Positions 18,563 through 45,434 of a stretch of 64,000 bases of DNA are shown here, one piece after another. The stretch is from positions 5,802,871 through 5,866,870 of the forward strand of contig JAJEKV010000010.1 of assembly GCA_021234155.1 (NCBI GenBank). The letters are read 5' to 3'. This DNA is from Isoetes taiwanensis (taxonomy: Eukaryota > Streptophyta > Lycopodiopsida > Isoetales > Isoetaceae). How positions within the stretch are numbered: position 1 is the first letter of the stretch; each line of letters begins with the position of its first letter. Position numbers and translations under genes: made by a program. The notes beneath the pieces were generated by a model. It was not told the origin of the DNA. It did not search any database and saw only the letters and a list, made by a program, of their open reading frames with translations.

Positions 18563-20099
18563 CACAAAGAAAATTCTGTTCAGGGGTACAACACCGGATC
18601 ATGCTTCCCGCCATAGCCAAATCCTATTCACTCTCCACGCCATCTCACAACAACCCCGCCAAATTGATTATGTACCGAATTTGATTTTGCGGGTAGCCAT
18701 GTCATCGATCTGGAAGCAATTTGCTAAAAACGGATCATCGCGTTCCCGCTCTCCGAGCACATCCAAGCACAGCGGACCAAGCACGAAAAGCAGCGCGTCC
18801 GGACGGGTGCTTTTGTACCCCAATATCTAACTTAGACCCACCAGGAAACCAATACCTTGTAAACAAAAACCATTATGCTAGCTGAAGAGACATTAAAAAA
18901 CAAATACCTTTGTAAGTGTGAGCAAAAAATCCAACTCGTGGTAGCAAAAATCCACTCCCGCAACAAGAATCCAAGAGGGCAAGTACACATGCATATGCGC
19001 ACATGCACACACATGCACACATGCACATGCTGCACTTGCACTTGCACATGCATGCATATGCATACAAATGCACATGCATACACATGAGCAGTGTTCATGC
19101 ACAAACACATGCAGAGAAACACAACAACCCTCGGATTGTTCCAACAAACGAAAATCAACGGCCCATAAAGGGTGCACTCTAGAAATACTATTTAGTACAC
19201 ATCAACGAATACAACAACGAAATCATAGAAAAACCATGTGAAAAAACGTATAAAAATCTAAAAGTAACCCCCTGTTATTGTGCTAGATATTCGCTTATTT
19301 ATTCTTCTTGTTTATATATTACAAGAAATTTATCGCTGCGGCCAAGACCACCGCGAACATTTCTCTTTATCAGTCTTTGAAGATAATGTTTGTGAACATT
19401 GTGAAAGTTGAATTCCATGGTTTCGAGTGCTATTGCATCAATATTTAAGTCATTGGCCCTAGTTAAGGAAGGGTGTTAGAAATATAGGTAAAAGTGTGAA
19501 AAATGGGTGCCAAACATGCACTTCAAATCTTAGGGAAAATATTTTTAAGGCAAACACAAGGAGACCAGCATTTAAACCTAACCACACATCTTAGGGAACA
19601 TATTTTTAAGGCAAACACAAATGGACCAGCATTTAAGCCCAACCACACGCACAATCAAAGCCGTATGTTTAATTCAGGTATATCTAACAGATATGCTTAA
19701 AATAGTAAGAAAGGCCAGCCAGCTGGGGTCACACCCATCAAGACACTAACATTCTTCAAGAAGTAAAACGCGGAAATCTGCGGCATAAATGGTTTCTATT
19801 TTTTCTTTCCATTTACGCTTGATTCTAGTCATTTGGTCCAGAAATTTAATTTTTCCTCAGAAATCTCTTCCCAACGCAAAAAGTTCTTGATTCATTGATC
19901 ATTATACATTGTCATCATTAGAATTTGCAAATTTAACATTAACTAGGGACAAAATGATAATAGGACGTCCGTAAAATGATCCCTCTATATATCTGTAAAA
20001 ATGGAAAAAACATCTGTATATATTTTACAATCACATGGCCAGACATAATGCAGCCAAGATGTTCATGACTGATATTTTATCCAAAGCCATTTCCTGCAC
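18563..20099. other. Flank of the transposase-like gene; (CA/TG)-rich microsatellite and a 60-bp tandem repeat
   Basis: An inverted pair GGGGTACAA (18583) and TTGTACCCC (18813) brackets a GC-richer stretch that may be the 5' end or terminus of the mobile unit. At 18985-19090 lies an alternating purine-pyrimidine tract rich in CACATGCA. At 19528-19650 a 60-bp unit (TTAGGGAA(A/C)ATATTTTTAAGG...) is duplicated. No gene was found. Confidence 0.5.
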
Positions 20100-20950: not shown

Positions 20951-22204
20951 AGAGGCATGAACAACAAAAAATACAAATGAAAAAGACTCATGCGCCACCG
21001 ACAGCAGGGCGGGAAGGGAGGGAAGCCACGAGAGGAGAAGAAGAGCTGCTGTGAGAAGACGCCGATAACCGAGCCAAAATGAAAATGGCCTAATATAGGC
21101 GCTCGTCCCTTCCCAGAATGGCGATCCGATGGCTCGGATCGATGGGATTCTGGGAAGGGACTCGCGAGAGACACAAAACCGGCCGACTACCAAAGGACTT
21201 CCTCAACTATAAGCCTAGTCGTTGCGAAACCTCCAGGTGAAGCCGATAGCAAGAAGATACTCCTGCCACCACCCTCGAGCAGTCGGATAGGATAAAGGAC
21301 GCAGAGAGAAAGGAGAGGAGCGAAAAAGAGGGCCGCCGGACGGAGGATCGAAGAGATGATAGGAACCGGTGGAAATTAGGCGCTGAAGGATAGTGATGGG
21401 GCATGCGAATGAAGGCAAGCGAGCTAAAGAAATCGTATGACCACGGGCAAATTGGTCTCGTTTGGAGTGGCAGGAGGAGAAAGGAAACCAGGGTCCGAAA
21501 AGTCTGGAAGCTACACGTTGACGAGAACCAGCAGCGCGAGCGAGCCGTGGGGGAGAAAACAAAGCTGAAGAAGAAGAGCCGGAAGCGCCTGCTATGGACG
21601 GTATCAGCCCAATGACCTGAAAAAGGAAAGGACATTAGAGAAAAAACAATGAAAAGAAAAGCACGCCGCCATGATGACGAAGCGCCCTGGCAACAAGGCG
21701 ATGAAAAAACAAATCATGTTAACGCGTACAATGCACATATGATATGAATGCAGATCACGGACTGTCAATATTCGGGAAAAGAGGTCAAACCATAAACCAG
21801 ATAAAGGAAGATGAATATCAAGAGTGGTAAGGTGAACCTAAAAAGCAACGTCTCAAAGCTTACCAATACCAGACCAACACCAACAGAATGAGCCAGCTCA
21901 GAGGAATGTCAATAAGAAAAAAGAGGTTGACAACAAGAAGTCTAAAGCAAAGAAGTTCATAATGAGGAGAGTGAAAATGCCAAGGTCCGGTTCAGGGTAG
22001 CATAGGAGAAATGTGGAGTGATGTCAGAAGACAAATACCATATGCAAAAAGCCATGAATAAAGGCCCCAATAGGAAAACAAACTTTGGCAAACGAGGGAT
22101 GAGAGCGAAGAAGAGAATGTAGACATACTAGCACCGAGCAAAAGGAAGGTCAAGAAGGAAACTAAAGGTAATTCAGAGCACAACGTAAAAGAAAAAATGA
22201 GGCG

Positions 22205-25300: not shown

Positions 25301-26985
25301 TATCTGAAGATTATCCGCCAAAGCCGAATGCTAGGGAGTTGAGAGATCATCCCGGGCCTTAACCAACATTGAATGCTTCGAAGGAGATCTAAATAAAATC
25401 TGAGGATACAGAGATAATGTAACCTTGTAATGGTGGAAAATCTTGGCTTAGGTAATAGGGTAGGAAATAAAAGAAATATGGGGATACCAGGATAAGGTAA
25501 CCCCGACATGGGTTGCACAGTTGATCGAAAGGGGAATCGAATGGGGAATCGAATGGCAAAGTGTTTGAGGATCAGATGCTTGTGAAGCAAATGCAGAGAG
25601 GATAGGCCGAAATCAGATTATGTAAGAAGGAGGATTCGTTGGAGAAGCTCCATAATTGATTTGCAAAGGAATCCGATGGCCGATGCTTAGAGTGCTTCGG
25701 CAAATTGTCCACCTGGCTCCAATCGGCTGCATAACTCCAATTTCGAAATTCATGGGCCTGTTGCAGGCAGGTACAGCAGGCTAGATTCTGAGAAGCTGGT
25801 GTGTTGAATCGCAACATAAGTATAGCACAAGGGAAAACCAAGCAGCACAGGAGCAAATTCGACCAGACTAGGAAGGCAGATTGTCAGAAAATAGAGCAGC
25901 ATGCAGAGCTGGCCAGATATGAAGATAGCAGTGACCCATGTAAAGCAATCAAAAAGCCAAAATGGCAAAAGGCGATAAGGAACGAAAAACGTGGAGATGC
26001 TAGAGGAAAGGCTGGTCCAGAGTCGAGGATCAACGGTTCTTGGGCCAGGATGGGTTGCAGTTCATAGGTGAAGCCTGAGGAAGGACGTCTCAAAAGAAGA
26101 AGGTCAACCGCTCCACGCAGGTGCCAGACGAATCCAACTGTTTGAAAAGATCTGCTCCTGACGAATCAATGATGAGGCAGATCTCTGGAGAGAACCGATC
26201 CCTGCTCTGCCTGCACTCAATACTATAAAAGAAAATAGCTGTTGCATGCTCCTTTGCATGTTCCAAAGATCAAATTGAGAGAAGTATAAAACCAATCCGT
26301 CAGAGGATGCATGCAGATAGATAGCTGTAAATGTAAGAAAAGCTCAACTGTAAAAGGAATCATCCAACCAGAGCCCAACTACGGTCTAAATCGCATGGAA
26401 GTACATCAATAATTCATGATAGTGCATGACGGATCTCCATGTAGAGCAATCCTCCTATAGACTCCTGATAACATAAACGGCAACGCAAAGACAGAAATGC
26501 ATGAGCATAAAAGAACTAGCAAGCAAAGCCACGGAAGCCAAACCATAGCGTACAAATCCGCCAAAACAATCGGGAGTGTGGCAAATCCGCCTGTGTGTAG
26601 AAGAACCTTGGCATAGGGAGAGAAATCCATACCTCATAAGCGATACTTGTATACATCATAAGTTGAAACAAAACAGCAAGAGCAGCCTAGCTATCAAATG
26701 GCCAAATCCAGAAGATGATGAGCCAAAAAGAAATGTGAAACAAGTGCAGGTTGAAGAGCAGGAAAAATTCAGAATCTGTGATGGGAAAACAGAGGGAATC
26801 AAAGATGATAAGACAGATGGGAAGCAATGGACAAGGAAAGACGGAGGGAAGCCACGAGAGGAGAAGAAGAGCTGCTGTGAGAAGACGCCGATAACCGAGC
26901 CAAAATGAAAATGGCCTAATATAGGCGCTCGTCCCTTCCCAGAATGGCGATCCGATGGCTCGGATCGATGGGATTATTCTGAAGT

Positions 26986-27430
26986 TCCTGTTGCACAGCA
27001 CAAGCATCAACCCATCGCATACTTTTTGTGTCCAATTTCTTGCAGTGCTTTCATACTTGGGCCTCTCAGATTTGTACATATGAGCTATCCAGGAACGAGT
27101 GGGTCATAACCATCATTCAATTAAATTGGGATTATGTCTATTCCAAAATCGCGCCGTATAAGCCTTTCATTGACCATTATATTGAATTAACCACACTTTT
27201 GCACTGTATTCATTTTCGGGCCAGGAAGATGCATTTTATGTTGAAATGCAAAGGCATTCAAATATTCGTAGCAAATGACCCATATTATGACAGAATGTTG
27301 GCAATAGAAAAAGTACGAAATTGCTTATAAATTCGTGCATTCACAACGACAACGAAATCTAAACTTTGAAATTGTCGTGCTTTACGAATAAATAACAGCA
27401 AGCAAGTTGCTACGAAACAGAGATTTTCGT
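26986..27430. other. Unassigned sequence right of the 20-27 kb insertion
   Basis: A plus-strand frame (27028-27330) has moderately protein-like composition but matches no family I know. At 27325-27420 short inverted blocks (ATTCGTGCA, TTGTCGTGC, TTTACGAAT) may be subterminal repeats of the following locus. Confidence 0.3.
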
Positions 27431-27502
27431 GGTTCAAATCGCGCCACGCGCGATTTGAACCGTCATAAATAACGCATTACAATAGAACATAAACTTAACA
27501 AA

Positions 27503-27733
27503 CTAATCAGATTCATCGTCGACAGGCGCTGCAGGCGGTCCTGATATCCTGTCGATCATGAATAAACCATGCTCTGGATTCCATATAAGATGGATTACAA
27601 CATCAAAGGGATCAGGATAGAAGCGGACGGGATTCATAGCAACGACATCAAGCCAGTCCTGAAGTTCTATTTCTAGCTCACGGCACCTGCAGAGGTCCGC
27701 ATGGTTCATCTTGCAGGTAATAGAATGTGCCAT
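27503..27733 (-). CDS. Small hypothetical protein, 76 aa, downstream of the ParB/MTase-like gene
   Basis: An intact frame begins at ATG 27733 and stops at 27503. It contains a Cys-rich start (CKMNHADLCRCRE), an acidic/aromatic middle (FYPDPFDVVIHLIWNPEHG) and an acidic end. No family recognised. It has the same orientation as the large gene and starts about 280 bp after its stop, with a palindrome copy 42 bp beyond its own stop. It may be a separate small gene of the same unit. Confidence 0.4.
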   Translation of the reverse strand: MAHSITCKMNHADLCRCRELEIELQDWLDVVAMNPVRFYPDPFDVVIHLIWNPEHGLFMIDRISGPPAAPVDDESD

Positions 27734-30700
27734 AATACCAGGCAGAAGGCGGAGACCGAAGCCGATGGTTTGCCAATTTCATGCATACCTATTTATACGC
27801 ACCTAAATTATTGACGGTATATACATACAAATTATTGCAAGTATAGCAAACCATACACATAATATAAAAAAGCAATACGTACACAGAACCAATAATGCTG
27901 ATATAAGAACACAATATATATTCAAAACCTTTCGTGTAAAGTATATTTCATATTCAAATTTTTTTTGAAAGTGTATTTCCTGTATACATATATATCAAAA
28001 AAGTTCCCTTTCTAGAACGATTTTTTCAAGGTCCCTGTCAATTTCCCCTGTCCGAGGTATAGTGTTTGTATCTCTTCAACCGTTTTTCCTGAAGCTATTT
28101 CATGCAAGACACTAACAAAACGAAGCAGGAAGTCGTCTTTGTCAAAATCTGCAGGATGATAGGATGGTGGATTCAATGACTCTGACTGATTGAAGCAACA
28201 CTTTAGAGCGTCATCATCCACAATGATGATGCCTTCCTTATCCTCAACACCTAGGGCATCCATCATGTTGCGCAAGCATTTCACAAATATCTTTTTACCT
28301 GTCGGTTCTTTAGGGTTTGTGAATGAAGCACATTTGCTTTGATCCCAGATGGACGCCCAATCTCTATTTAGCTCAGGCACTACTTTCAAAACATCATGTA
28401 TATTTCTAAGCTCCATAGATGACCAAATTGCACAACGAAACAGACTGAAGGCCTGGTCCAACATCTGCGGGTAAACATATTTGGTACGTGTCTCAAATGG
28501 TTGTTGCGCATACCATGACTTTTCAAACGTTGCTTTAGGTAACGTTCTACATAGCACACCATTCAAATCAAAGACCAGTACTTTTGGGGAAGCCAAATCA
28601 TTTCTGCAAGGAGAACAATAACGTATGAGATAAAAGAAATGGAAAACGAAAACGCGCCAGGCGCGATTTCATGAATGATGCATGTCAACATAAATTAAAA
28701 ATATGAAATCTAGGAAACTCTAAATCGCGCAAGGCGCGATTTCTAGATGCTTGTAGTTTATAAAATGCATGGATATAAAAAAAAAAAACATTGTTACGAT
28801 ACCTTTCTTCTTCTTCATTCCCCGGTGTGTCTTCTTCCGTTGCATTCTTATTCTGAATTGTCTCCGCTCTGATAGAAGCACCAACCACATCAGTTGAGAT
28901 CTGTACAGTGTGAACTATGCTTGATAGTTCATTACTCTTTATGCTAACCTGGCTAGTGTTTTCAGATTTGGAGTCTACTTCATCATCATTATTGTTATTA
29001 TCATCATCCTTATTATCTTGATCCTTGTTATCTTGATCTTCAGGGATGTTCACAAGGATGTTCACAGGGATGTCGATAGGTACTTGGTGCTCTGGCTGCT
29101 CTTCGGTTTCATCCATGATGTTGTGGCCAATGATTAGTTTTCTCATATTCTCTCGTTCCTTAAGCAAATCTGCAGGTATTTCGGCCTTAGAGGTAGAAGC
29201 TGTGTTTTTTGCACTGCCGATTGGTCCCCTAGGTGCTTCCTCTAGTACTTTCTCAAAGAAGAGGTCCAAGAAATTTTTGGCTCGATCATCGGAGACGACG
29301 CTCTGACATTTCCTTGCTAACTTCAAAGCTTCTCTACCGATGTAACCTCCAACGTGAAGTTCCCAGCAAGTTGTTCCCAATGGACAAAATGCTTCAATGA
29401 GGTACTGGAAAAGCTCCATAGAGAACCCGTTCTTGTTTAGCTTACCCTTATGTGAAGTTAGGAGCTCATACTTAATGTGGCCCACAAGAATTGGGTCCTC
29501 CTCGTTTTCATCCTCTTCTTCCTCTTCTTCCTCTAACTCTTCCACGACCTTGACACACTTCCCCTTGTCTTCTTGCTCCAGATAGAAGACGTTTCTGATT
29601 ATGCGTTCATCTAACTGATAGCACTGCCATGCTAGTTTGTCTCCATCTGGTTTTCCCCTGAGCCTTTCATATTCCTTATCATCCATCATGGCTATCATAA
29701 TTATAAGCACATGAGAAATTTTACTTGTCTAAGGTCTTTGAAGTCACTGTCCCTGGTTTCATCTATGAGGATCGCCTGTCGTATGACTTTCACGCATTCT
29801 AAGTCATTTGCAGCAGTTAGAGCATATGCATAGGACATGTCGGAGGGACATATAGTGACAATTGTGTAGTTCATCTCCGTCGTGAAACCATTGCATATGT
29901 GGAAGAACGTATTATAGTCATCAAGCGACCATCTGGTGTCTCGGCTATCAAGCACGAAGAGTGTGATATCATGGGGACCTGCACCCACTTCTGGCAAGGC
30001 ACACTTGAAACCAGTGGACACTTGATAAAAAAAAGTGGATTCCGTCTCCGGGGTCTTCTTCACCAACGCGACTTTTCGTTTCAAGTCGGATGCAACTTTA
30101 GTGTGAATCCCACTGATCTTTGCCACGTTCTTCAACTTCTGCTGCTTGACAAAGTCCTTGGACCAAAATACATACTTCTTTAGGTCGTCGTTGAAGACGT
30201 TATACTTTTGCATGAGTCCTAACTCCGACAACGACCACTCTCCTGTAAGCCTTTGTAATTCCTCACCAACTGCCTTTTTGAGCACTCTAATATTTTTCAG
30301 CTCGTCGCATGCTTCTTCAAATGATTCCAGAGACTTTGCTGCCGAGGTTTTCTTGTATAGAATTTCCTTTCTGATTAACCTATCCAGAACTGAGATCAGC
30401 TCTTGATCGTCCAAACCCTGAGCCTTCCTCAACTCTGTTGTATGTATATCAAAAATTGATGTGTCAACAGGAGGAAATCTTCCTTGTGAATCTGGCAACT
30501 TCTTCTCGACGTAGGCATCCCAGAATTCATTCCATTTCTCCCATACTGGATCTGAAGCAAATATTATCTTGCAGGCATCCTTGGGCACAGTTGGTTCCTC
30601 GGAAGCATCACCCTTTTCATCTCCTTTTTTTTTCTTTGATCTGGTACTCTTGTTTTTGTCTTGTATTATCGTCTGACTAAGTGTCCTCTCCAGCAACTTG

Positions 30701-30879
30701 AATTCAACGCTTTTGGACTGGCCCTGTCTGGTTGGCATTGGCTTCCCATATTCAATCGACTGGTTCCGAGCATGCCGAAGTTGCTCTATATAGGGACTGC
30801 AAGGAATAACCTTGTTAACTTCATAATCCTGAATAAAATAAATCCTTATAGTTTAAATCGCGCCAGGCGCGATTTCATA

Positions 30880-31162
30880 TTAGAAAGCAAATCGCAAAGA
30901 ACAAACGCTTCCTGTTATGGTAGCCATTTCTCGTCACACAAGTAAATCGCGCCTGGCGCGATTTCATATTGGCTAGCCTGAGGAGACTTGGCTATTAGAC
31001 GGATAGCCTTTATCCTGAGGGTAGGCAAATCCCGCGTGAGGCGTTTAGCATTCTCATATGAAATCGCGCCAGGCGCGATTTACTTGTTTGACGAGAAACA
31101 ACTACCAAACCAGGAAGCGTTTGTTCTTTAGAATGGGCAAATCGCGCCTGGCGCGATTTGCC
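30880..31162. repeat. Large foldback with palindromes in the arms (intron 2)
   Basis: The arm at about 30880-30975 (with AAGAACAAACGCTTCCTG and TTTCTCGTCA.ACAAGTAAATCGCGCC) is the inverted copy of about 31045-31150. The loop is about 70-90 bp. Each arm includes one or two of the GC-rich palindromes. Arm identity is high, with mainly single-base changes, and no reading frame crosses it. Confidence 0.8.
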
Positions 31163-32421
31163 TTCTAATATGAAATCGCGCCTGGCGCGATTTGCAAATA
31201 CGAAAACGAAACCTAAGGGAAGAGAATTACCTTTTGTATAAGAATGTTATTCCCATGTCATTCAAGAGTGCGCTTATTTCAGCTAGCTCGGCAGGTGTTG
31301 TTGAGCCGCTCAGGAACCGGCAGTTTCTGACAGAATACAGTTTATAGAACAACTGATGCCCACTATGCTGTGCCTTCCTGATCAGAACCTTCTGGGCCTC
31401 TATTGAATGCTGGCCATCTATTATCATAAAATGTGTGTCAGGATTGTCGATGAAGTCCTCCAGCTTGCTCCACATGAATATCTTCCTCGTTCTGGTATCG
31501 TACGTCACTACATCTGCAGGCATTGGCACTTGCCCTGGATTTTCGATCATGCTGTTCACTATCTCCAAGGAGTGCTGCTTGTCATACCTTCTGCTGATAT
31601 AAATGGCTTTAGTGGACCTAAAAAGCCTATCCGTGGAATTTGGATGGGTGAAGTTCAGGCCCAATGGATACTTGTCGACATATTTTTTGAGCTTGCTCAT
31701 CGCCTCAAACTGCGACCTTGTCATCGTCACTTGTAAGGCCTCTTTGCCGCTACGTGGTTTCCCCGCCTTTAGAGCTTGCTTCTTCCTTATCCTTCACTTT
31801 GCTGTAAGTAGACCTTTGCGAGGGGCCTCGTGCTAATGGCTCGTCGAACATTTTGTAAGCCCTCGCATATTCTTTTAGGAGTCAATGGCTGCCAACTGTC
31901 CAGCCAAATTTGAAGAGGTTATCGGCCATGTAAATGCGATCTTAAAATGATCTCTTTAAAAGAGCTGCTTTGCATCGATTGATCTTCTTTAGGCTCTTCT
32001 TATGTTTTTGGCCGACTTCAACTAGCGAGAGAACGAAAGAAGAATCGTACTGTACCATGTAATAAGAATTCCCTGCTTCTTCATTTGATCAGTCTCTCTT
32101 ACCCTTGACATAAATATGAGGTCTGTCTTCCCACCAGTTTTGAATATCTCCACATACCATTCTGACCCCTCTATAAGATCTTCTTCTGGACATGGAGGTT
32201 CTACCTGAGCCTTTATTATTCCGGATGTATCTTCTAACGTCAATACATGCTGCAGGTCTATAACAGTAACATCTTCATCTGTCCTTTGCTTTTTCTGGGC
32301 TGAAGAGGTCTCGCCTTGCTTGGTTCTCCTTTTGATTGGCTTTTGTGATCCTGTAAAATTACAGCACATGGTTTAATCTGTTAATGCTAAAACATATGCT
32401 ATGTCGAAATATATGCAAGAA

Positions 32422-32535
32422 AAACGCGCTTGGCGCGATTTGGAAAGAGTATAGAGCAAGTTCATTTACTTATTGGAGCTAACAAGAACGCGCTTGGCGC
32501 GATTTGAAATGAATACAGAGCAAGTTCATTTACTT
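32422..32535. repeat. 64-bp tandem duplication including the palindrome
   Basis: ACGCGCTTGGCGCGATTTG plus AGAGCAAGTTCATTTACTT is present twice head to tail (about 32423-32471 and 32488-32535). It shows how palindrome copies can multiply with their flanks. Confidence 0.75.
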
Positions 32536-33239
32536 CAAATGCTGACACAACTAACTATAAAAAATACAACTTCAATTGTCGATTCTACATCTCAAGATAT
32601 AGAAACTAATGTAATGCCTTGACACAAATAACTATACCACCACAACTTAAAGAGTTGAATTACACTACAAACTATAAAAACCACAACTAACTACTGAATA
32701 CTGTTTAGCCACACATTAAGCACACATGTTTGGGACATATGAACTCTAATATTAGAGGACACATGCTTCTTCTCGGTTAATAACTCTATTAGGGTCACTT
32801 CCCACTCGCCTTTAGGTTAGGTTAAACTTAACTAGCTAGTTACCTCTTAATTTAATAGAATGTAAGTTACGCTTTCCCATTAAGGCCGTTAAATTAAAAC
32901 TAACTTAACGGATCGTGAAAATATGCATTCCCACTATATTCATTATGAACCACTTAGATTATGTCCATAAACTCAACTTAACCTAATATTTACAATGAGT
33001 TTGAGCTTCACACTAGTAGTTATAGGGTTAATTGTATTATGTTCCCACCTTTAGTTAAATGTACCTTTAAGTTAGAGAGAACTAAAGGGGGCTATTGGTT
33101 GTTGGTTGCTTGAATTGAGTAGGTTAATGGGATTGATAACATATGATACACCTACTATAGGTAGACTATAGGTAGTCTCCAGATATTACTATATCTGTAG
33201 ACTTCGAAATTTTAAAGCTTAAAGATAGTCATTGAAGAT

Positions 33240-33402
33240 GAACTCGAAAGTGTTTATAGTGCAAATGCTAGTCAGGTTATTAATATTACGTGATACATAG
33301 TAGTAGTTGTGTACATATTGTAGTTACGTGATGCATATTGGACCTGACTATTAATATTTTCATGTAGTTGTTTATGGTTGCATAAACACTTTTGAGTTCG
33401 CC
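33240..33402. repeat. ~160-bp foldback inside the Harbinger element
   Basis: GAACTCGAAAGTGTTTAT near 33240 is inverted at 33383-33402 (ATAAACACTTTTGAGTTC). TAGTCAGGTTATTAATATTA and GACCTGACTATTAATATT pair further in. It looks like a small MITE nested in the non-coding half of the element. A diverged ~123-bp tandem repeat (GTAGCCCAATGT...CACCTTAAATACCAACCT) follows at about 33977-34165. Confidence 0.55.
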
Positions 33403-34703
33403 TTTTAAATGACAAATATAATGGGAAGAAATGCTGTGTTTCTCATAAATTGTTCATATTGGTAACATCTAACGGATGGAGTTTTTGAGCTACCAGCAGG
33501 GATTCTCTACACCAACAAGAATTAAGCTCCAGCACAGAGTTGGTAACCTTCTACCAATGCATGATTAGTGGCTTGCATGACTCAATACATTTAAGCCTAT
33601 GATTGTTCCTCATGTTTTTTCTTATCTACAGCGAAAGGACCAAATATTGAACGTGGCTGTTATGATCCGCAAACTTTTCCTTCTTCTCAAAGCCGTTTCC
33701 TTAGAAGATATTATTAGAGCCGTTACTTGAAGACTTGTATATTATTAAACGAAATCATAGAAAAAGACACTGTTCATCAGGGATCGTTTAAAGCACTGTT
33801 CACAAGGGTTCGAACATTTTCGATTGCATTTTCGGCTCTAAACACTATCGCCTACATGCCGCAGAACTCAAGCTGATGAAATCCGGCACTGTTCAATACT
33901 ATTCTTCCAATCAGACCGGTTTACTTACTATTTATTACTTTACACAATCTGTCTTTTAGGTACAAAGCTTATCCAAAAATTCTGTAGCCCAATGTTCTGC
34001 ATGAATGATTTCGTTCACCTTAAATACCAACCTTAGGACAGAGATAAATCTATAGACAGAATAATCTGGAAAAAAAAATATCTGAGACAGAATAACCATG
34101 ACTGTAGCCCAATGTGCAAAAATGATTTCTTTCACCTTAAATACCAACCTGAGGACAAATTTAAGCTGCAAAGATTTTCTCTACTTCCCTCATAATAGAA
34201 CTAGTTCCACTAGTAAATGTTTAGGGTCCTGGAAGTGTCCATGACATTAAGCAATGAATTTCATCAGTTCCTATTCTCTAATTTCCAGCTTCATCTGTTA
34301 TATTTGCTAAGCTAATCATTTTCATTCACACGGTATTCTCCTGATTACAAACATTGATCAATGCAAGGCAAATAGCACTAGGATGCAGAATATAAATCTG
34401 GCACCTATGCAAATGTAGAGACACATCTGCCATACCTTCACTATTAATAGTTTTTCTTCGCCACTGCTAGCCATATCATTACATAGCCAAGCTCCAAGTC
34501 TCCACCTAGCATTAGGCAATTATATAGACAAACAAAACATATTGTTGAAAAGCTATCTATATTCTAAATGTTCATATGAGTTCCCTTTGGTGGGCTGCAA
34601 TGATGATCTCCCACCTGTAAATATGCAAAAAGGACTTTAATATTCAAAGCTATGGAAAAGTATCACAAAGGCTTTGCTAATGCTTGCAAAACTATTACCA
34701 GCT

Positions 34704-36014
34704 TCAAAAATTGAGGACAAGATACTCAGATATGGACCTCCTTAATTCTTCTCCTAAAACAGCAAGTTCTGCCTCTTCAATGGGACCCTCCACTGTTGCT
34801 GGTGCTATATTCAGATCTCCAATTATGTTTCGAGCATGTCTTGCCAGCCTTTGAGCCTCAAGTTCTTCTAGTTCTGCATTTACATCCACTTCACCTATAT
34901 CAATGAGAACATTATGTAATACACAACATGCATGCGCAACAATATTGGCATATATTGGCTTCATCTTCATCTTCTTGTCCAAAATCTTAAACTTTGCTTT
35001 TAACAAACCAAAAGATTATTCAATGAAAACACGAGCCTTTCCTAGCTCTTTATTGAATTCCCGTTCAACAACTGTATGCACCCGTCCTATCCTATCTAAA
35101 AAGGAGACGAGAAGCCACGGGCTGCATGTATAGCCCTCATCAGCCAACAAAATGGGTTTTACTTGCACACCAAAATTGATGGTAACTACTGGTTCTTGCA
35201 TAATTTCACGATTTTGAATCCTCTGACGAATGCCTGAGTTCTTCCAAACCCTTGAATCATGAACACTTCCAGGATATCCAATGTTAACATCAAGGAATTT
35301 GCGGTTACTATCACAAACAGCCTGTAGAATTATGCTAAACCTCTGTTTTCGATCATAGTAATCTGCTCCAGTTGGACCTGTAGGTTGCAAGATTTCCAAA
35401 TGTGTACAGTCAAGAATCCCGCAGACATTAGGAACCTTAGAAATAAGGGCAAATCCATTTATAATTTGCTGCAACTCCTCGCCAACTGGAAACTTTATTA
35501 CATCATTGAAGTTAGAGCAGACTGCCCTACAAGTTTCTACACAAATCTTATGGGCAGTACTAACACCTATTCCAAACTTCTCCGAAAGTACTAAAAAATC
35601 AACACCTCTGAAAAGCTTATAGAATGTACACCCAACTCTGATGTGCACTGGAACAGCATTACGAAAGTTAGTGTCACATCTCTGAATATCGTGTTCCAGC
35701 CTTGCACAGAACCAAAAAAATGTTTCTTTCTTCATCCGAAAGTTTTCTTTCCACCTTGCATCATCATAATAGCCCATCATGAACTTGTCAAACCAAGTGA
35801 AGCTCCTTGGTTTAACCCACCACCTGTCTTGCAATGACAACTCTTGTTCTACAAGTAAATTTACATCTTGAACATGTTCAACTAACTGCAGATCTTCATC
35901 TTCAATATCTTCCATCCTAGCATTTAAACCCTCCTCTGAAAAAATTTGTTGGCCTCTAAAAATCATAGGCAAAGTTTGACCCGCTAACATCAAAATTGTT
36001 TCTTCTAAACTCAT
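34704..36014 (-). pseudogene. PIF/Harbinger transposase (DDE_4), one in-frame stop
   Basis: A single 436-codon frame is broken only by TAA at 35016-35018. N-terminal part: helical region with FYKLFRGVDFLVLSEKFGIG and STAHKICVETCRAV (HTH-like). Catalytic motifs: VCGILDCTHLEI (first D), DVNIGYPGSVHDSRVW, ILLADEGYTC (second D), then KARVFIE-stop-SFGLLKAKFKIL, where E is the third catalytic residue and the stop follows it at once, in place of the usual Gln or Arg codon. One C-to-T change (CAA to TAA) or G/A equivalent would explain it. The C-terminal ~100 residues remain open. The start ATG at 36014 gives a complete N-terminus, although an upstream exon is possible. The enzyme would cut and paste at TWA sites with the Myb-like partner. 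As it stands it is truncated, so mobility would need trans supply or readthrough. Confidence 0.9.
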
Positions 36015-36221
36015 TTTCTAACTCTTGAAGAGTCCACTAGTCGCTTTCTAATTTATTTATTAGAATCTAGATCACCTCCAAGCTACATGTGCAACGTTAT
36101 TCAAATCCTACTGAGAACCTGCAAAAAATGACCCACAACTTAGAATTCAAAAGTAACAGAATTTCAAAACAAAAACTTATAAAACATTATTTCACCAGTA
36201 CATGAGAACCGGCGCGCAATT

Positions 36222-37501
36222 TTACGCCATGCATTTGCGATGGTTTTTCAAATTTTTATTGAAATCCCTTTGTTGTTGTAGCTTTTCCTGCTCGATTTCC
36301 AATAACGCTTCAGTTTGTTCCCTTCTCTCTTCCTTTGTATTTTTTATGGCATCTACCAAGTTCCTATTTGCCTCTAATATGGTGGCAGCCATGCTGTTTC
36401 CAGTAGTTTTTCTCCTTTTTCCCGATGAACCTATCTCACCTTTACCTTGTGGATGGTGAGGATCAATATGATCCAATTGCAATGTGACTACCTTGCTTGT
36501 ATCAACTATGTTAGGTGGATTGACATTGGGCCTTGATGATTGAAATGAATCCATCGCATCAAATATGCTACGATGGAAATTTGGCAACTTCCTTTGCTTT
36601 TTTTCTTCACTCGAAAGAGAGAAAAAATCTGGATTTCCTGTTTGTTTCTGAAAATCCTTCACAGTCTTATATTCTCCAATCAAGTTCTCCCATTTGGTCC
36701 TACAACCCTCTCCATCTCTATCCTTGTAGCCATGTTTTTGCATTTCCTCGGCTATCTTCATCCATTTCACGTTTGCATTCTCCATCTTCTCCCTTGTATT
36801 TTTCTGCTCATAAATCAGCCACTCTTTCTTTTTAAAATCCACAAGCAAGAGTGCCTCATCAAGATTCCAATTTCTTGATCGTTTTCTCTTTGCACTCGTG
36901 GATGGATCAGCCACATCATTCTCAAGTCCAATTCCTTGCTCTTCACCAATGGCTTGCTGTTGGTTATAAAATTCTCTATCAATACTACAACTAGAAGATC
37001 TATATATACATCAAGTAATAAAATAATGAAATACCATTGTCTCGTGTACATCAATTTGCTCTTGCTCTTCATGGACCTCAAATTGCTCTTGCTTGGAGGA
37101 ATCCGATTCAATTTCCACAACCTACAAAAATAGATAGATGTTTTAAACAATGTGATATGTTTGATGTGGAGAATAAACAGATCAAGCAGCTACCTAAAGA
37201 CCCCTACGAAGAATTCTGCTACTTATAGAATGAATTCGAAATCATTCAAGGGGCAACTAGTTCAGGGCCAGAATCTAACTATGCCAATGCAACCGTCATT
37301 GAGGTTTACTCTCTATTCTTGGAATATAAGCATCAATAATAAGTAATTGATACTATCAGATATGAGATTGGATAGGAATATTTCAGACGACAGAGGCCTT
37401 ACTGTTGTTTGTTTTGAATTTGATGCATTGCGATTTCTAAGCCTGCCCGAGCAGCCACTATCTCCTCGACCGCGACCTCGATCATTTCTGCGTTTTCCCA
37501 T
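36222..37501 (-). CDS. Harbinger Myb/trihelix-like accessory protein, three exons, 306 aa
   Basis: Exons 37501-37403, 37124-37035 (start 37121) and 36956-36222 join in phase 0 with GT-AG borders. Product: Arg/Gly-rich start (MGKRRNDRGRGRGDSGC), an acidic linker, then a Myb/SANT-like trihelix domain (RNWNLDEALLLVDFKKKEWL ... KWMKIAEEMQKHGY ... GCRTKWENLIGEYK), and a C-terminal coiled coil rich in Glu/Gln. No lesion was seen. In plant PIF/Harbinger elements such a protein recruits the transposase to the element ends and to the nucleus. It lies upstream of, and in the same orientation as, the transposase, 208 bp away. Confidence 0.82.
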
Positions 37502-38032
37502 TTTTTCTCTCAGGCATAACCTAATAGATTCATTCCCTTTTCTCACTATTCCATTACGTTAATGCTTAACTGCGATTAAAAAAAGTTAAATGGACCTATC
37601 ATAGGTCACTTAACTTCTCCTTTATCTTAATTCTGAAAAAAAAAAGTCCGGTTAACATTTTAACATAACCGTCTTCAATGAGAAAGCCGACCTTGTTAAG
37701 TTAGTCACCGTTAAAAATTAACCAATATTTACTTAACCGGAGATAACCTAAGGATCGGTGTGAAAACAACTTTCAGTTAATTAGCCTATTTAACCTAACT
37801 TAAAGGCGAGTGGGAAGTGACCCTTATTACAGAAAAACATCTTAAAAAAACCTAACAAAAAGAGGGACACAGAAATCAATTACAGACCAAAAACAGATCA
37901 ATTACCTGAGGCGCTTGCTGGATTTGTGCTTTCTGCTTGTTCAGAAACCTCCAGGCTTTGCATTTGTGCTTTGGACTGTCGCCCACCTCTACCTGCGCCT
38001 CGGCCGCGGTTGCCTGATCCTCTAGACGCCAT

Positions 38033-38420
38033 AGAACTGCAAGTGCGGATAATATAAGACTGGGGTTTTGGTTTAAACTTATATGTATGCGTTGATAATC
38101 TAGGCCGTCAGATTTACAACTGTAAATTCAAATTCACGTCTTTTTTAATTTATACCGCCTTAATTAACCGCCCGTCCCGCTCATTTACAAATTTAAATTG
38201 TGTTTTTCTTTTTAGTGCAATTTCAAGATAACAATTAATTATTAATTTCAAGAAACGTATATGTGGCAATCTACTACCACCTAATCGGCCACCTACTATC
38301 AGAGCGCCCAAGATCATTCCTACTATCAGAGCGCCCAAGAACAATCGACTATCAGAGCGCCCAAGATCCGTCTACAACGCCATCAATCCCATTCGATCGA
38401 GCCGCCTTCAATCCAATTCG
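38033..38420. promoter_or_regulatory. Divergent promoter with three 18-bp iterons
   Basis: The 388 bp between the two divergent start codons contain CTATCAGAGCGCCCAAGA at 38296-38313, 38323-38340 and 38349-38366, spaced 27 and 26 bp apart and identical in the core. They lie within 125 bp of the plus-strand start. Regular iterons between divergent genes suggest binding sites for an element-encoded protein. No TATA box can be claimed with certainty. Confidence 0.6.
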
Positions 38421-38767
38421 ATGTCTGCTGAACTATGGTGAGTGTGATTCCATTCCGAATGCATTCTCTTGTTCTCTATTTTTCGTCCTCTATTTTTTCC
38501 AATGCATTCTGGTTCTTTATCAGTTTCGGAGAAGAATGCTATCTTTTAACAGCAAACTTGAAGCGCCGAGTAGGCTTATGTAAAATCGAAGATTTGAATC
38601 CAAGTTCTATGTGTCATGGTGTTCCTCTTGGAAACAGTTTCTGTAAGATTTCCATTATAAACTGCAATTATGAAGATGAGGCTCTTCCAAGAAGACATCC
38701 CGGTGGCGATACAGTTGGTGAAAGCGTGGGCACATTTGTAGCATGGCCAAAAGAACGTCTGAAAAAG
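38421..38767 (+). CDS. Start of a Tnp1/En-Spm-like transposon gene (two exons seen, 3' part not found)
   Basis: Exon 1, 38421-38437 (ATGTCTGCTGAACTATG/GTGAGT), and exon 2, 38524-38767 (CAG/TTTCGG ... AAAAAG/GTATGT), join into 87 open codons. They carry MCHGVPLGNSFCKISIINCN and DTVGESVGTFVAWPKERL. This matches the pattern of the plant Tnp1/En/Spm-type domain (PLG...V.V.....D..LP.P....TVGEAVG.FVAWP). No following exon was recognised before the palindrome cluster at 39 kb, so the gene is probably truncated or its 3' exons are lost. It is divergently arranged with the ParB/MTase-like gene. A similar AWPRDSIQ block occurs in the gene at 41.6 kb. Confidence 0.5.
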
Positions 38768-38799
38768 GTATGTATATTTGGATATTCAAAAAATAAAGA

Positions 38800-38975
38800 A
38801 TATATCATAACATCTGCGTGATGTTGTGAATTTTGAATTCTGTGATGGTCTTTAGCCAGTCTTATCAACCCCATGAAACTACAAATTAATGAAAATATGT
38901 AGTTTCTTGGGGTTGGTCATACTGGCTGGAGGGCATCACAGGATTCAATGTTTTCGACATTGCATATAAAGAAAC
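38800..38975. repeat. ~175-bp near-perfect foldback
   Basis: About 80-bp arms pair around a ~14-nt loop at 38883-38898: TTTAGCCAGTCTTATCAACC and CCATGAAACTACA on the left, TGTAGTTTCTTGGGG and TTGGTCATACTGGCTGGAGG on the right, with CTGTGATG/CATCACAG further out. Bulges are small, as in MITE or young miRNA precursors. It sits in the intron or 3' flank of the Tnp1-like gene. Confidence 0.7.
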
Positions 38976-39107
38976 ATAATAAACTAATGACAGAAAAGTA
39001 TAGTGCAAAATTGCGCCAGGCGCGAGTTTGTATTCATATTCCAAAAAAGTATATGTACATTTCTTCTTCTGCAAAAATGCGCCAGCGGTAGCGAATTCTT
39101 TCTATCT

Positions 39108-39527
39108 CTACAATATGTCACCACGGACACACTTCATCGGCCCAATCCATAAAAAGTCCCACCTGAACCACCACCGATATGGCGGGATCCTCATCTTCCC
39201 TGCGAATGTCGAGTCTCCAAACCCAGTGTTGTATCGATCCTTGATACTATAAATCAAATCCTCGTACTTATTTGTTGGCATGAGCCTTACTAAGAGCATG
39301 AGGAGCCGCATATGTCCAGAGATGCGATGGAAGTGTTCCCATGGCCCCTGAAACAGACCGTCTAATGGATTCTCCAACTCTCTTTGAACGTTTTGAACAG
39401 TACAATCAAGTAATATCTTGTACAGGGTCCAGAGTTGATGGTCGTCCAGGGAAAGTGTATTTGTTCTAGAACCAGCCAGTGTATTTGAACTAGGAACAGC
39501 CAGTGTCCATGCATAAGGAAAATCCAT
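39108..39527 (-). CDS. Hypothetical protein, 139 aa, flanked by palindromes
   Basis: An intact frame from ATG 39527 to the stop at 39108. It is rich in Trp/Leu: DDHQLWTLYKILLDCTVQN, WEHFHRISGHMRLLMLLVRL, and a Trp-rich C-terminus (PPYRWWFRWDFLWIG). Palindrome copies lie on both sides, so it belongs to the same unit as the ParB/MTase-like gene, in the same orientation and about 1.1 kb upstream of it. No family recognised. It could be an exon of a larger gene. Confidence 0.45.
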   Translation of the reverse strand: MDFPYAWTLAVPSSNTLAGSRTNTLSLDDHQLWTLYKILLDCTVQNVQRELENPLDGLFQGPWEHFHRISGHMRLLMLLVRLMPTNKYEDLIYSIKDRYNTGFGDSTFAGKMRIPPYRWWFRWDFLWIGPMKCVRGDIL

Positions 39528-39829
39528 GGCACTAGAACGAGAGAAATTAAGATATTAGCAAATGATATATTACTCTCCCCATAAAACGATTCTGAACATA
39601 CATAATTCAAAAAGCGCCAGGCGCGCTTTGTGTTTTTCACATATCTATTTCTCACGCGCCTGGCGCGATTTGTATAGAGCCGTATGAAATAGAAAAGCCA
39701 AACTAAAAACGCGCCTGGTGCGCTTTGATTAACCTAGTGGAAAAACGTAACCCAAAAATAGAAATGCGCCAAGCGCGATTTCTCCCATTCCAACATATTA
39801 TTCTAACAAAATGCATAATGCAGAATGCA

Positions 39830-41550
39830 GAATGCAGAATTCAAAATATGAAGCCAGTTAGAGTAGATATATAATAATAATACTCCTTGTTTAGTTCAAT
39901 ATTTAGTTCATTGTTTTAGTTCATTATTTAGAGCAGATAGAGGAAGAGCTAGTGAAGATCTATGATCTATGATCTATGATCATAATCATAGATCATAGAT
40001 CATAGATCATAGATCATAGAGCAAGATCATAGAGCAGATATGATCTATGATCATTATTTACTTCATTATTTTAGATCATTAATTAGAACAGATAGAGGAA
40101 GAGCTAGTGAAATAGAATAACTTCATTATTTTAGATCATTAATTAGAACAGATAGAGAAAGAGCTAGTGAAATAGAATAAGAGCAGATCATATAGGCAAG
40201 ATCACAGAACAAGATCATAGAGCAGGATCTATATATGAAGGTGGTAAATATACTGATGCATGTAAAAGTAAATAACATGCTTTCTGTAAAATAACTACTT
40301 TATGTAAATAACAGGAAATACTAACCTATTTGTGTTCTGTACCCGAGAATTGAGCCTTTGCCTTCGAGCCGAAACCAAAAGATCGAAAACCAAAGTTGAT
40401 TTGATTCGAGAAGCCAATAGCAGATGATTTGAGCCTTAAGAAGCCGAGAAAAAGCAATAGCAGCTAATTTGGAGACCGAGAAGCCGAGAAGCTTTAACAC
40501 AAAAAACCAAAGTTATTCAAAGTCAGAGAGATTGTAGAGAGCCGAAAAGCCAAAAAAACCAGAGACATTCTTGCTGTAAGAATGATGCTATACCAGAACA
40601 TTCTTGTAATATATGTGGAACATATACATTCTTGCTTATATTGCATATATTAAAAGTCCCATGGAACATTCTTGCTTATATGTGATGATGCTATACTAGA
40701 AACTCTATAATCAACAGAATTCTGCCTACAAACCTTGGAGCCGAAAACACCTTTGAGCCGAATACCCTAAAGCAGATGATTGTAGAAGCCGAAAAGCTCA
40801 AAAAGCCGAGTTTAAAGCAGATAGAAGCCGAAAAGTCGAGATTGATGCAGATAGAAGCCGAGATTGATGCAGATAGAAGCCGAGAAGCAGATAGAAGCGC
40901 CTAGATTGCATGCAGAGATAGAAGCGCCGAGAAAAGCCACAGAGATTGTGGAGCCAGAAAAGCTCGAAAGCTCGAGAGATTGTGGAGCCGAAAAGCTCGA
41001 AAGCGCAGTTCGAAAAGCACCAGAAGAGAAGTTCGAAAGAGAGACAGAAAAGCTGGAAAAGTTGGAAAGGGATTGTAAACTGGAAATAATAACTGCTTTA
41101 AAAAATTCGTACCGCGCCATAATAACTGCCGCGAAAATTTATTGCAAGGGTTATAAGTTATAAGATTTAAGGTTAATAGTTTTAAGGTTTATAAGTTAAG
41201 GTTATTAGTTAAGGTTAATATTTTTAAGTTCATAAATAAGGTTATAAGTTTAAAAGTTTATGAATTTGAATTTAGAAGTTTTAAGTTTTAGAAATTTTAA
41301 GGTTATATTTATTGAAGGTTAGAAGTTTTAACCTTAAAACTTCTAACCTTAAAAGTGCTAACCTATAATAAGCTTTAAAGTTGTTTCTAAGGTTACAACA
41401 TTTAAGGTTATTATAAGTTAATATATTATAGGTTAACTTATTATTATTATAGATTGTGTTATTATAGGTTATTATTAAGGTTAACTTTCATTTAAGAACA
41501 TGTTAGGGAGATGTTATTTGGATATGCTAACTTACTATAGGTTTTTATGC
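39830..41550. repeat. Simple and tandem repeat region
   Basis: GATCTAT/ATAGATC palindromic microsatellite at 39957-40055. A 60-bp unit (TTCATTATTTTAGATCATTAATTAGAACAGATAGAG...) is doubled at about 40072-40191, with a third diverged copy at about 39905. GAAGCCGA(A/G)AAGC-type repeats fill 40340-41060 and create an artificial charged frame. Degenerate AAGGTTATAAGTT repeats fill 41155-41500. No real gene is visible. Confidence 0.65.
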
Positions 41551-41566
41551 ATTTTAGGTCAATGGC

Positions 41567-44538
41567 ATGCAAAATGCTAAATCCCCCAAGGCCCCCAATG
41601 ATGGTGATCAAGGCAAGGAAAAATCCCCAACTAATGAAGATGACAAAGATGATGGGAAAGGAAAGGAAAAGACCAGAAATGAAAATGATGAAGATGACAA
41701 AGATGATGGCAAAGGAAAGGAAAAGACCTCAAATGAAAAGGATGATGCCAAAGGAAAGGAAATTGTACTTTATACTCGGGTCGATTGGAAAAACAAAAAG
41801 GTCAAGATCCTGCATGCATGCAACAGAGAGGCAGTAGGAGAAGGGATTATTGTTCTAGCAGATCCTATCAATGCAGTGAATGATGAAAGATTAGGGGAGG
41901 ACAGGTTAGGTGTGGCAATCTCAAAATTATATGACAATTGGAAGGAAAAGGGTTCAGGCAAACAAGAATGCCTAGCTTGTGTGAAGCAACTAGAGGTTCC
42001 AACTATTGTTGCATGGCCTAGGGACAGTATTCAACTGGAGGGGAACTACACGTTTCCTATAGATGTAGAACCATTGTCAACAATGTTCACACAGTGTAGC
42101 AAGAGGCCACTTCCAACTTTCAAACATTATCCCACCAAAAGATGCAAGTCAGATTATGATTGTTCTCCTGAAGCTATGATGAAGGTTAGAGGAGGTGAAT
42201 GTTGTTGGGCTTCTTGTGTTAGAATGTTCACAATAGAGGAGTTGGTGGGAGCAAGAGCTACATATCAGGAACATAAGTGTGATAGCAGGAGGAATTTCAT
42301 GTACACCATATTTGGCTATGCAATTAGGGATGAAAGATCAAAGAAGAAAAGATTCCCATTGAATGGAAAGTGGATATGTTCAAAAGCATGGATGGCTATA
42401 CATGGAATTCCAACCTCTTCTTGGCACAAACCGGCAAAAGAGACATGAAAATGGTAGTAAAATTGCATTGCATGGGAACACCGGGCACGGTAAGGCCTAC
42501 CTCAAGAACTATAGCTGCAAAGGAAATATTTGAAAGATATGTGGATTTCAATGCGAGAAAACATGCCACATAAGAGTAAGAAGGATGAACAGGGGTAGAG
42601 TTATTGTTGAAAAGAGATTGCCATCCCATTGTACCCTTAAGAGCATATTAGAGGAAATAAATGCATTGCTTGGGAACTTGGAGTGGCCTCTATATCCCAG
42701 CCCAGTTTTAGTAGGCTATGGAATAAGCATTTCAAGCATGTGACCATAGCAACTTCAAACAACTTTGCCAAGTGCAATTTATGTGCTAAGTTGAAGGAGA
42801 CACTAGATAAGGCTGTGCAACCAAGTCTAAGGGCAAAGATAAGGGAACATATGAAGGACCATATGACAGATCAACTATCATGTAGATCAACTTATTGGAT
42901 GTGGAGGACCTTATACGCAATGGAACCTAATAACTATCTATGTGTATTATACATGATAAAATGGACCAACAGTAAGACTTGTCTTCCACAATTCAAGTAC
43001 ATTCCTAAGTCATGTGGAAGATCATACCCTTTGCAGATTTCAATGGCTTGGGGGCAATATTGCATGGGCAGTCTCGGACCTATTATGGCCATTTCGGTTT
43101 AGAGTTGTGGCGTGATGGTCCAGATTTTCACATTGGGAGTATCATGAGGTGTTTAAGAAACTATGAGAAGGATTACAATGGTCACCTCTGAGGATCCTAC
43201 TGACTAGCCGGGCACTACATAGTGCATTGTTGGATGGAACCCCTAATAGTATTGAAAAGTTTAGCAAGGCAAGATTTAGGAGGAATGGACCTAATGAACA
43301 TGTTGGAGCTTCAACATCTCGTGCTAAACCTCTAGAGATCCTTGAAAGCTCCTCTTGCAACTAGATAATTGTCTTTGGTCAAAATAAGAAGCAGTGGATG
43401 TTTTCTTTCCTATCCTACTTAACAAATTTGTGGGTATTTTTGAAAGAGTCAATTTGGGGTTCCTAATGCCCGGACATACTCATGAGGATGTGGATGCATT
43501 GTTTGGAAAATATAGTCATGTATTGAGATAGCAGACAGTTACCAACTTTCCCAGGCTATTGGAAATATTTCATGGATGTACAAATCCATCTCCTATAGGA
43601 TCTATCATAGAAGAAGTGCCTGATTGGAAGAGTTTTGTGGATGGTTATGCTCTCGACATAGAAGGTCATTCTAGACCTCTTCAATTCACTTTTTGGGTGA
43701 GAGAAGGGATTCCAATCATGCAATGGAAAATGAGACCTTCAGAGGAGAAGTGGAGAGGTGGGGCAGAAATTTGGCACATGGATGCAAATGGCAAGCCTAT
43801 GATACCTCCTGGTCAACCAAAAGCTCTAAAACCAACTGAAGAAGTCAAGCAATTGGGATTGACTAAGGATGGCATCAATGACTACATCAAGCATTGACAA
43901 ACTAATTCAGATGAGACTAATCGTGCATTGATAGATTATTGGAAGAAGGTGATCAACTTGTTGGATGAGGTAGACACATCCTCAGAAGAGCTGAAAGAAG
44001 GGTGGTTCCCTAAAAGTAAGTGGAAAACATTAGCTGGTGCTGACGAAGATGATGGTACCATTAGTAGCATTGTGAAGACATATGCTCCTCCTCAATCTGA
44101 TAAACACTATGTTGGTCCTAAGAAGGACAGGCCAAAATATTTAGGCATGGATTGTTATGAACCTTCTCTCGGCGTGGAGTGCCACCAATTTGTAGTAGTA
44201 AAACCAAGAGATCTAGAGACCTATCCGGTGTGGTTGGGATACACTATCTCGGATATTTGCAAAGAAGAAGGTGATGTTAACTTCAATAAGGTCTTGGCGT
44301 GGAATGGTGGTGTCGATTACATCGGTTGAGTAATGTCATAGATAAAGAAAGATATTCAGATTGTTGGACAAAGAGGTGGAGGAGAAATCCAAGTGATCCT
44401 GATCTTTGGCTAGACATTGAAACCGTATTGTATTCGTGGACTCCAAAAACTGTTCCTAGTAAAACAGCGAGAGTTACAATACCTCAGGATGTAAGGAATA
44501 AGGTTCTCATATCCTTGGGGATGCTAGTGGAAAAATGA
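41567..44538 (+). pseudogene. DUF7869-type transposase-like gene, heavily decayed
   Basis: The first frame (41567-42448) has a Lys/Asp/Glu repeat start (three GKEK blocks), then RVDWKNKKVKILHACNREAV and IVAWPRDSIQLEGN, and a Cys region (CCWASCVRMFTIEELVG). After frame changes near 42435, 42575 and 42720 come FERYVDFNARKHAT, RVRRMNRGRVIVEKRLPSHC, FSRLWNKHFKHVTIA and KCNLCAKLKETLD. Then, after more breaks, the signature PGHTHEDVDALFGKYSHVL (near 43470-43525) is followed by an in-frame stop. The C-terminal frames 43559-43897 and 43928-44329 are split by one TGA, and the tail is at 44299-44538. KCxxC and GHTHEDVD are typical of DUF7869 proteins of plant mobile elements. No terminal repeats were found, so element borders are unknown. 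Confidence 0.7.
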
Positions 44539-44775
44539 AAAACAGTTACTATATATCTTTTCTACAGTTAATAAAAGTTGTGTACTACTTGAGTTCCATG
44601 ATATATGATTTTGTAATTTGAAGTTAAGGTTGAGTTTATATTCCCGTGTGTGATTATATGTTAACGTCTATTCTAGTCTAAGGGCAACAAAGTTACTAAA
44701 AAAGTGAATTTAACAAAGTTACTAAAAAAGTGCAATATAAAATTTATCCCAAAATTAAGACATAATCCCAATTTA

Positions 44776-45434
<659 letters not shown>

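Follow-up and report, generated by a model that had tools for sequence, protein, structure and literature searches.

A 64,000-nucleotide stretch of the Isoetes taiwanensis genome (contig JAJEKV010000010.1, positions 5,802,871 to 5,866,870), hereafter the window, was found to carry a large DNA transposon with terminal inverted repeats (TIRs), one gene of which encodes a fusion of a ParB-like part, a degenerate DNA methyltransferase-like part and a NIF/HAD phosphatase-like domain. A 19-bp palindrome recurs in introns and flanks of this gene, and a related family, whose protein has the same ParB-like and methyltransferase-like parts, carries a different one. A separate palindrome for each family, located in introns and gene flanks within its own elements, is the new observation and, we think, the strongest part of the case; it lay outside the preliminary description of this DNA, as did the element ends and a nested PIF/Harbinger. 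We give about an even chance to the reading that the product of this gene marks its own transposon by binding specific DNA sequences, probably without enzymatic activity; binding, dimerisation and anti-silencing are inferred here from patterns in the sequences.

The fusion gene belongs to a high-copy transposon

The window was compared with ten more copies of the same family (family 1) in 20-kb contexts. Homology to the other copies spans 44789 to 27107 and then ends. A 4-bp target site duplication (TSD), ATGA around the window copy and AAGA at copy C1089, was exact in two of the three two-ended copies, while the third, C1031, showed a one-base mismatch. A search of the species' own genome (1.66 Gb, 1110 contigs) with exon 3 of the fusion gene (E3) returned at least 110 match rows, a lower bound on the matches in which a few copies are split over two rows. 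A large, high-copy TIR DNA transposon carries the fusion gene as an accessory, in agreement with the earlier assignment of the gene to a mobile element. The element has the following parts, the first three being unstranded:

27108..44789: whole family-1 TIR DNA transposon, defined by the stop of homology at both ends, TIR and TSD
27108..27139: TIR at one end, 100% inverted match to 44758-44789
44758..44789: TIR at the other end, forming a perfect 32-bp inverted pair
41558..43099, plus strand: presumed transposase gene remnant, with DUF7869 (PF25273) in the matching region of two other copies

In those two copies Pfam recognised DUF7869 on the opposite strand of the element with values of 1.4e-24 and 6.1e-19. 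The DUF7869 protein is presumed to be the transposase; Pfam labels the domain as of unknown function, and a literature search on it returned no paper. The 4-bp duplication is reminiscent of the Sola superfamily.

The fusion gene consists of four exons:

37903..38032, minus strand: exon 1, beginning MASRGSGNRGRGAGRGG, with an ATG and an in-phase GT donor, present in other copies
31231..32350, minus strand: exon 2, coding for the N-terminal region and the IDGQHS-bearing ParB-like domain; carries a frameshift, most of the stretch being open in C1089
28803..30796, minus strand: exon 3, a linker followed by the degenerate methyltransferase-like domain of beta class (LDSRD ... CPLGTTCWELHVGG), acceptor in phase
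28012..28603, minus strand: exon 4, NIF/HAD domain with DLNGVL, Pfam PF03031 5.8e-10

All the strings from which a single minus-strand exon series had been proposed were recovered in the window, namely IDGQHS (open reading frame (ORF) 31230-31793), LDSRD (29704-30852), ELFQYLIEAFCPLGTTCWELHVGG (ORF 28688-29728) and DLNG (ORF 28015-28668). In the window sequence, exon 1 is joined to exon 2 and the methyltransferase part to the HAD exon by in-phase GT-AG junctions, and the junction between ParB and E3 keeps the reading frame here as well as in all four other copies examined. The exons are one natural fused gene.

The window copy is decayed: it is broken between the N-terminal part of exon 2 (E2) and ParB and again near 29740, where exon 3 has a single frameshift and other copies are open, and a few HAD residues are missing. 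Copy C1089 retains open frames of 356 aa (E2 plus ParB), 714 aa (E3 plus methyltransferase) and 232 aa (HAD); a single stop codon interrupts exon 1 and another the beginning of exon 2. The L032/L033 subfamily was compared with six main-group sequences, and the ratio of nonsynonymous to synonymous divergence (dN/dS) was 0.07-0.13 in 12 of 12 comparisons; the proportion of synonymous differences (pS) was 0.69-0.73, so that synonymous sites are near saturation and the dS values are rough. The subfamilies diverged under strong purifying selection, a sign of long-term constraint. Inside the main group the ratio was 0.38-0.93 (15 comparisons), as expected since these copies are young and partly dead. 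The altered motif IV-like and motif I-like stretches described below are mostly preserved between subfamilies, and the altered form therefore looks like the functional one.

A palindrome confined to the element wherever checked

The family-1 palindrome, AATCGCGCCNGGCGCGATT, has 15 sites in the window at up to three mismatches, all inside 27437-39780, where 0.00 were expected from shuffles. The sites, unstranded and located by site search, are distributed as follows:

30856..31192: intron cluster of five exact AATCGCGCCNGGCGCGATT, starting at 30856, 30945, 31062, 31140 and 31174
28650..28741: a pair with 73-bp spacing, in the intron between the methyltransferase and HAD exons
32422..32504: a pair upstream of exon 2
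27437..27455: one palindrome downstream of the fusion gene
39009..39780: five palindromes around a small ORF

In the 11 family-1 contexts, 112 sites with up to two mismatches were counted in 148,428 bp of element span versus none in 77,573 bp outside, the upstream bases of five copies without a located outer end being counted as inside. None of the 11 palindromes of C1089 falls within its coding exons. When two introns were aligned between C1089 and L033, the aligning blocks were mostly palindromes and splice edges, the palindromes being retained where the introns had otherwise diverged. Genome-wide, 637 exact AATCGCGCCNGGCGCGATT sites were found and none with the reversed-pattern control. Fourteen of the first 50 listed sites are next to family-1 E3 matches, and the first five of the other listed places (8 sites) all proved to be family-1 elements. 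A distance of 73 bp between two sites recurs in 10 of the 11 contexts. The exact palindrome also occurs once in each of two viral contigs, which was taken as chance.

A second family with its own palindrome

The diverged relative L022 adjoins copy C919, and its ParB part is 28% identical to that of family 1. It belongs to a second family with 88 match rows in the genome. The family-2 palindrome, AATTGGGCGNNCGCCCAATT, has 2848 exact genome sites (control 0), and at up to two mismatches it was counted 17 times in L022, 18 in L051 and 14 in L052. As L051 (60% identical) and L052 (51%) both retain it, the palindrome goes with the family. The family-1 palindrome is absent from L051 and L052, and its three occurrences in L022 all lie within the adjacent family-1 element. 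Palindromes are repeatedly spaced by 71-74 bp or, as in L022, by 37 bp. In one stretch of L051 (3661-4313) ten family-2 palindromes follow one another at intervals of 71-73 bp.

The family-2 protein was read in three stretches:

L022 1981-3636, minus strand
L051 1998-3629, plus strand
L052 3137-4960, minus strand

The protein starts with MARTKQTARVPG in two of the three loci and with MARIKKTARIPG in the third, that is with MARTKQTAR or MARIKKTAR respectively, in frame with the ParB-like protein. The nine-residue start MARTKQTAR is identical to that of histone H3. No HAD domain was seen in the family-2 stretches, though L051 stops shortly past the methyltransferase part; the HAD domain is therefore not essential to the type.

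The methyltransferase-like part

Searches of Pfam, NCBIfam and PHROGs returned no significant match for the fusion-gene exons other than HAD, Pfam PF01555 reaching only E 0.24. The methyltransferase part was then compared by hhalign with nine phage ParB-N6/N4 methyltransferases. L036, which is no ParB fusion, was taken out of the reference alignment before the comparison. Family 1 alone gave P 0.28, a score equalled by 27 of 60 column shuffles. L022 alone gave P 5e-4, family 1 with L022 P 0.0024, family 2 P 0.0015 and both families together P 1.2e-5 with a probability of 81%. The joint match lies in the expected register, a motif X helix followed by motif I, and its score of 44.5 was reached by none of 60 shuffles (maximum 26.3). 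The shuffle controls, 60 each, covered the ParB and methyltransferase comparisons for family 1 (with L022 in the case of ParB) and for both families; the values for L022 alone and family 2 alone stand outside this set. The methyltransferase relationship is supported indirectly, becoming visible only once the second, diverged family is added. The earlier claim of such a relationship is supported by way of family 2 and not by family 1 alone.

Motif IV of beta-class N6/N4 DNA methyltransferases is [DNS]PP[YFW]. In its place family 1 has LDS[RC][DG]TRW and family 2 CD[FL]R[YN]. Motif I reads VLDFFSGG in family 2, CTVLDFFSGGAFSRAA in L022, and WE[LF]HVGG rather than FxGxG in family 1. The preliminary description was therefore right that the catalytic motifs are altered, and we infer binding over modification, as it did. 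Since motif IV is lost, DNA methylation by the fusion protein appears unlikely.

Phage ParB-N6/N4 methyltransferase fusions (e.g. XTK82984.1, Evtepia phage NatCom_11697) have the same order, a ParB-like part and then the methyltransferase, with motif IV preceding motif I as here and the profile match at motifs X-I. Unlike them, the Isoetes protein has no DPPY, a motif I that is degenerate in family 1, a long linker, introns, and an added HAD domain or H3-like tail. The proposed prokaryotic or viral origin was not borne out by protein, viral-contig or phage searches, none of which returned relatives. The search of 5.8 billion proteins with E3, the ParB exon and a composite returned none, a result weakened by length limits, word sampling and limited candidate scoring, in a database that may contain few land-plant proteins; sequence searches of viral contigs and phages returned none either.

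The ParB-like part

Profile comparison of the ParB-like part by hhalign gave P values of 0.028, 0.2 and 0.042. The scores of 20.3 and 19.3 barely exceeded the shuffle maxima of 18.6 and 18.7, with 0 of 60 shuffles reaching them in each case. No Pfam ParB match was obtained in the exons and copies scanned. A single-sequence AlphaFold2 (AF2) model of the ParB exon was poor (predicted local distance difference test, pLDDT, 39); a fold search with this model gave no match at E 0.001, and the result was not used. The ParB-likeness of exon 2 is suggestive, not proven. Otherwise the case draws on the motif, on how the elements are ordered in the poor model and on the position ahead of the methyltransferase part. 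The earlier proposal of a ParB domain has suggestive support and is not proven.

The HAD domain

The NIF/HAD domain (PF03031) was recognised by Pfam in the window copy with E 5.8e-10 over profile positions 1-158 of 160, and in C1089 with E 1.6e-17; the bit scores, 39.5 and 64.1 respectively, exceed the curated cut-off of 21.8. The identity of the domain is certain, and the described fusion to a CTD-phosphatase-like domain was confirmed. NIF phosphatase-like domains of PF03031 have a DxD catalytic pair. The Isoetes domain, while matching the NLI-interacting-factor-like phosphatases over nearly the full Pfam length, differs from them in that the second catalytic Asp is replaced by Asn (DLNG) and in being fused to a transposon protein; DLNGVL was found in the window, C1056, C1031, C1089 and L033. 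A sequence search of the PDB gave no significant match for the HAD exon, the ParB exon or the profile A3. A second NIF/HAD-like domain, with DINGVL, is located 20 kb off in the window (7434-8321, plus strand; Pfam E 0.0013, below the cut-off); a RING-like stretch and a gene with an XS domain lie upstream of it.

A putative self-recognition system and its alternatives

Self-recognition is favoured because the protein is under selection, the palindrome is confined to the element wherever it was checked and the related family has a different palindrome. Acting as a dimer, the protein would recognise the 19-bp palindromes through its ParB-like and dead methyltransferase-like parts, and would mark, and load onto, its own element at the palindromes in introns and gene flanks. 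Once bound, it might act on chromatin or transcription, and the element would stay expressed or anti-silenced. For family 1 the effector would be the NIF/HAD domain, for family 2 the histone-H3-like tail.

Several points weigh against this proposal. ParB homology is only suggestive, and DGQHS/NGNH[TM] stands where ParB has a GxRR-type motif. The HAD domain was not seen in the family-2 stretches. Every copy read is damaged or only partly checked, none being proven open throughout. Of the listed genome sites of the family-1 palindrome, 28 of 50 remain unplaced, as do 587 unlisted ones, and placement of the 2848 family-2 sites covers only the three loci read. Finally, local duplication can spread clustered palindromes, as the 73-bp and 37-bp spacings suggest.

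A more specific version, tentative and in our opinion somewhat doubtful, is a ParB-parS-like eukaryotic self-recognition system, in which the protein would load at the palindromes, the H3-tail mimic or the HAD domain would recruit host chromatin factors, the element would escape silencing and at least two protein-palindrome specificities would have co-diverged. The GxRR-type nucleotide motif is a feature of ParB in ParABS systems. The likeness to ParABS (ParB and parS) consists of the ParB-like motif context and the family-specific palindromes; the differences are the lack of a GxRR-type motif, the only suggestive homology, the lack of a helix-turn-helix by Pfam in the exons scanned and of a ParA-like partner among the ORFs read, a profile search for ParA not having been made.

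That the palindromes are host transcription factor sites, collected as promoters or enhancers while the fusion protein does something else, is unlikely. The palindromes are GC-rich with A/T flanks, resembling for example the sites of an E2F-like dimer, and they also surround the small ORF, beyond the fusion gene; however, two different palindromes in two families would not be expected of a shared host factor, and no site fell outside the elements in the 11 contexts. We consider it decidedly unlikely that the fusion protein acts as a partner in transposition, with internal palindromes assembling a transposase complex or controlling copy number in a replication- or partition-like manner. The ParB-like layout, the recurring spacings and the DUF7869 gene in the same element would agree with this role, but the palindromes are internal rather than terminal, and no ParA-like partner was recognised in the ORFs read, which were not searched by profile. 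Passive palindromes, that is hairpins spread by slippage and conversion with no cognate protein, are quite improbable: local tandem and inverted duplications do occur, but the sequence is kept at matching introns of a subfamily with near-saturated synonymous sites, and is absent from the coding exons of C1089. An active modification enzyme, methylating element DNA and using HAD as a phosphatase, is highly improbable, since neither family has a [DNS]PP[YFW] motif IV, WE[LF]HVGG replaces FxGxG in family 1 and HAD has DLNG instead of DxDG, despite the motif X-I similarity of both families to phage ParB-methyltransferases and the VLDFFSGG kept in family 2.

Known systems offer a parallel for the proposed DNA-binding factor that would mark its own element. 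VANDALs are Mutator-like transposons with a TSD of about 9 bp, unlike the elements described here, which have a 4-bp TSD, DUF7869, a ParB/methyltransferase/HAD protein and palindromic motifs. VANC21 and VANC6 are anti-silencing proteins of Arabidopsis VANDALs; their motifs are reported to occupy introns and upstream regions of the elements that encode them, to vary from family to family and to spread through tandem repeats (PMC5735166). The likeness accordingly comprises an element-encoded factor, a short motif enriched in its own noncoding parts, different motifs in related families and their spread by tandem repeats. Enrichment of the own motif in noncoding parts was found here and the Mutator-like TSD was not; as the elements are of another type and the motifs of another shape, we do not file the protein as a VANC. 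Our best reading is that it may work like the VANC proteins, with no claim of membership.

Few plant transposons are known to counter silencing through their own sequence-specific protein, VANC being the sole example in the literature searched, and the titles and abstract beginnings screened described no plant ParB-methyltransferase transposon gene and no transposon H3 mimic. If the self-marking proposal is correct, this would be an apparently independent anti-silencing system, built on another protein and on sites that are much longer, palindromic and family-specific, and protein-DNA co-evolution would therefore be directly testable. A module of ParB/methyltransferase type, known above all from phages and bacteria, would have entered the conflict between eukaryotic transposons and their hosts, and family 2 would contribute a possible histone H3 mimic.

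Nested element and other features of the window

A further transposon was identified within the first intron of the fusion gene:

32792..37823, minus strand: nested PIF/Harbinger, separate from the fusion gene; TSD TTA, Pfam, TIRs, copy comparison

Several other copies are uninterrupted across 32791/37824, with a 3-bp overlap; the window intron therefore contains a nested 5-kb PIF/Harbinger. It displays the features of this type, namely DDE_Tnp_4 (35019-36017 and 34707-35015), a Myb/SANT ORF (36225-37010), a 3-bp TSD and TIRs. The span given in the preliminary description, 28012..38032, includes this unrelated element.

The host element also contains two small ORFs:

39111..39512, minus strand: no Pfam match, from the ORF list and Pfam scan
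27506..27751, minus strand: 82 aa, no Pfam match, also matched at four of five further family-1 places

An exact 133-bp direct repeat is present at 21017-21149 and 26843-26975, the second copy just beyond the element. Elsewhere in the window, a transposase-like coding stretch, HIFWSDGCTSQFKGARPFW, occupies 16907-18598 on the minus strand with no significant Pfam match, and zf-XS and XS domains (PF03468, 2.5e-33) were recognised at 528-1568 on the plus strand, in an SGS3-like gene, used as a land-plant hallmark.

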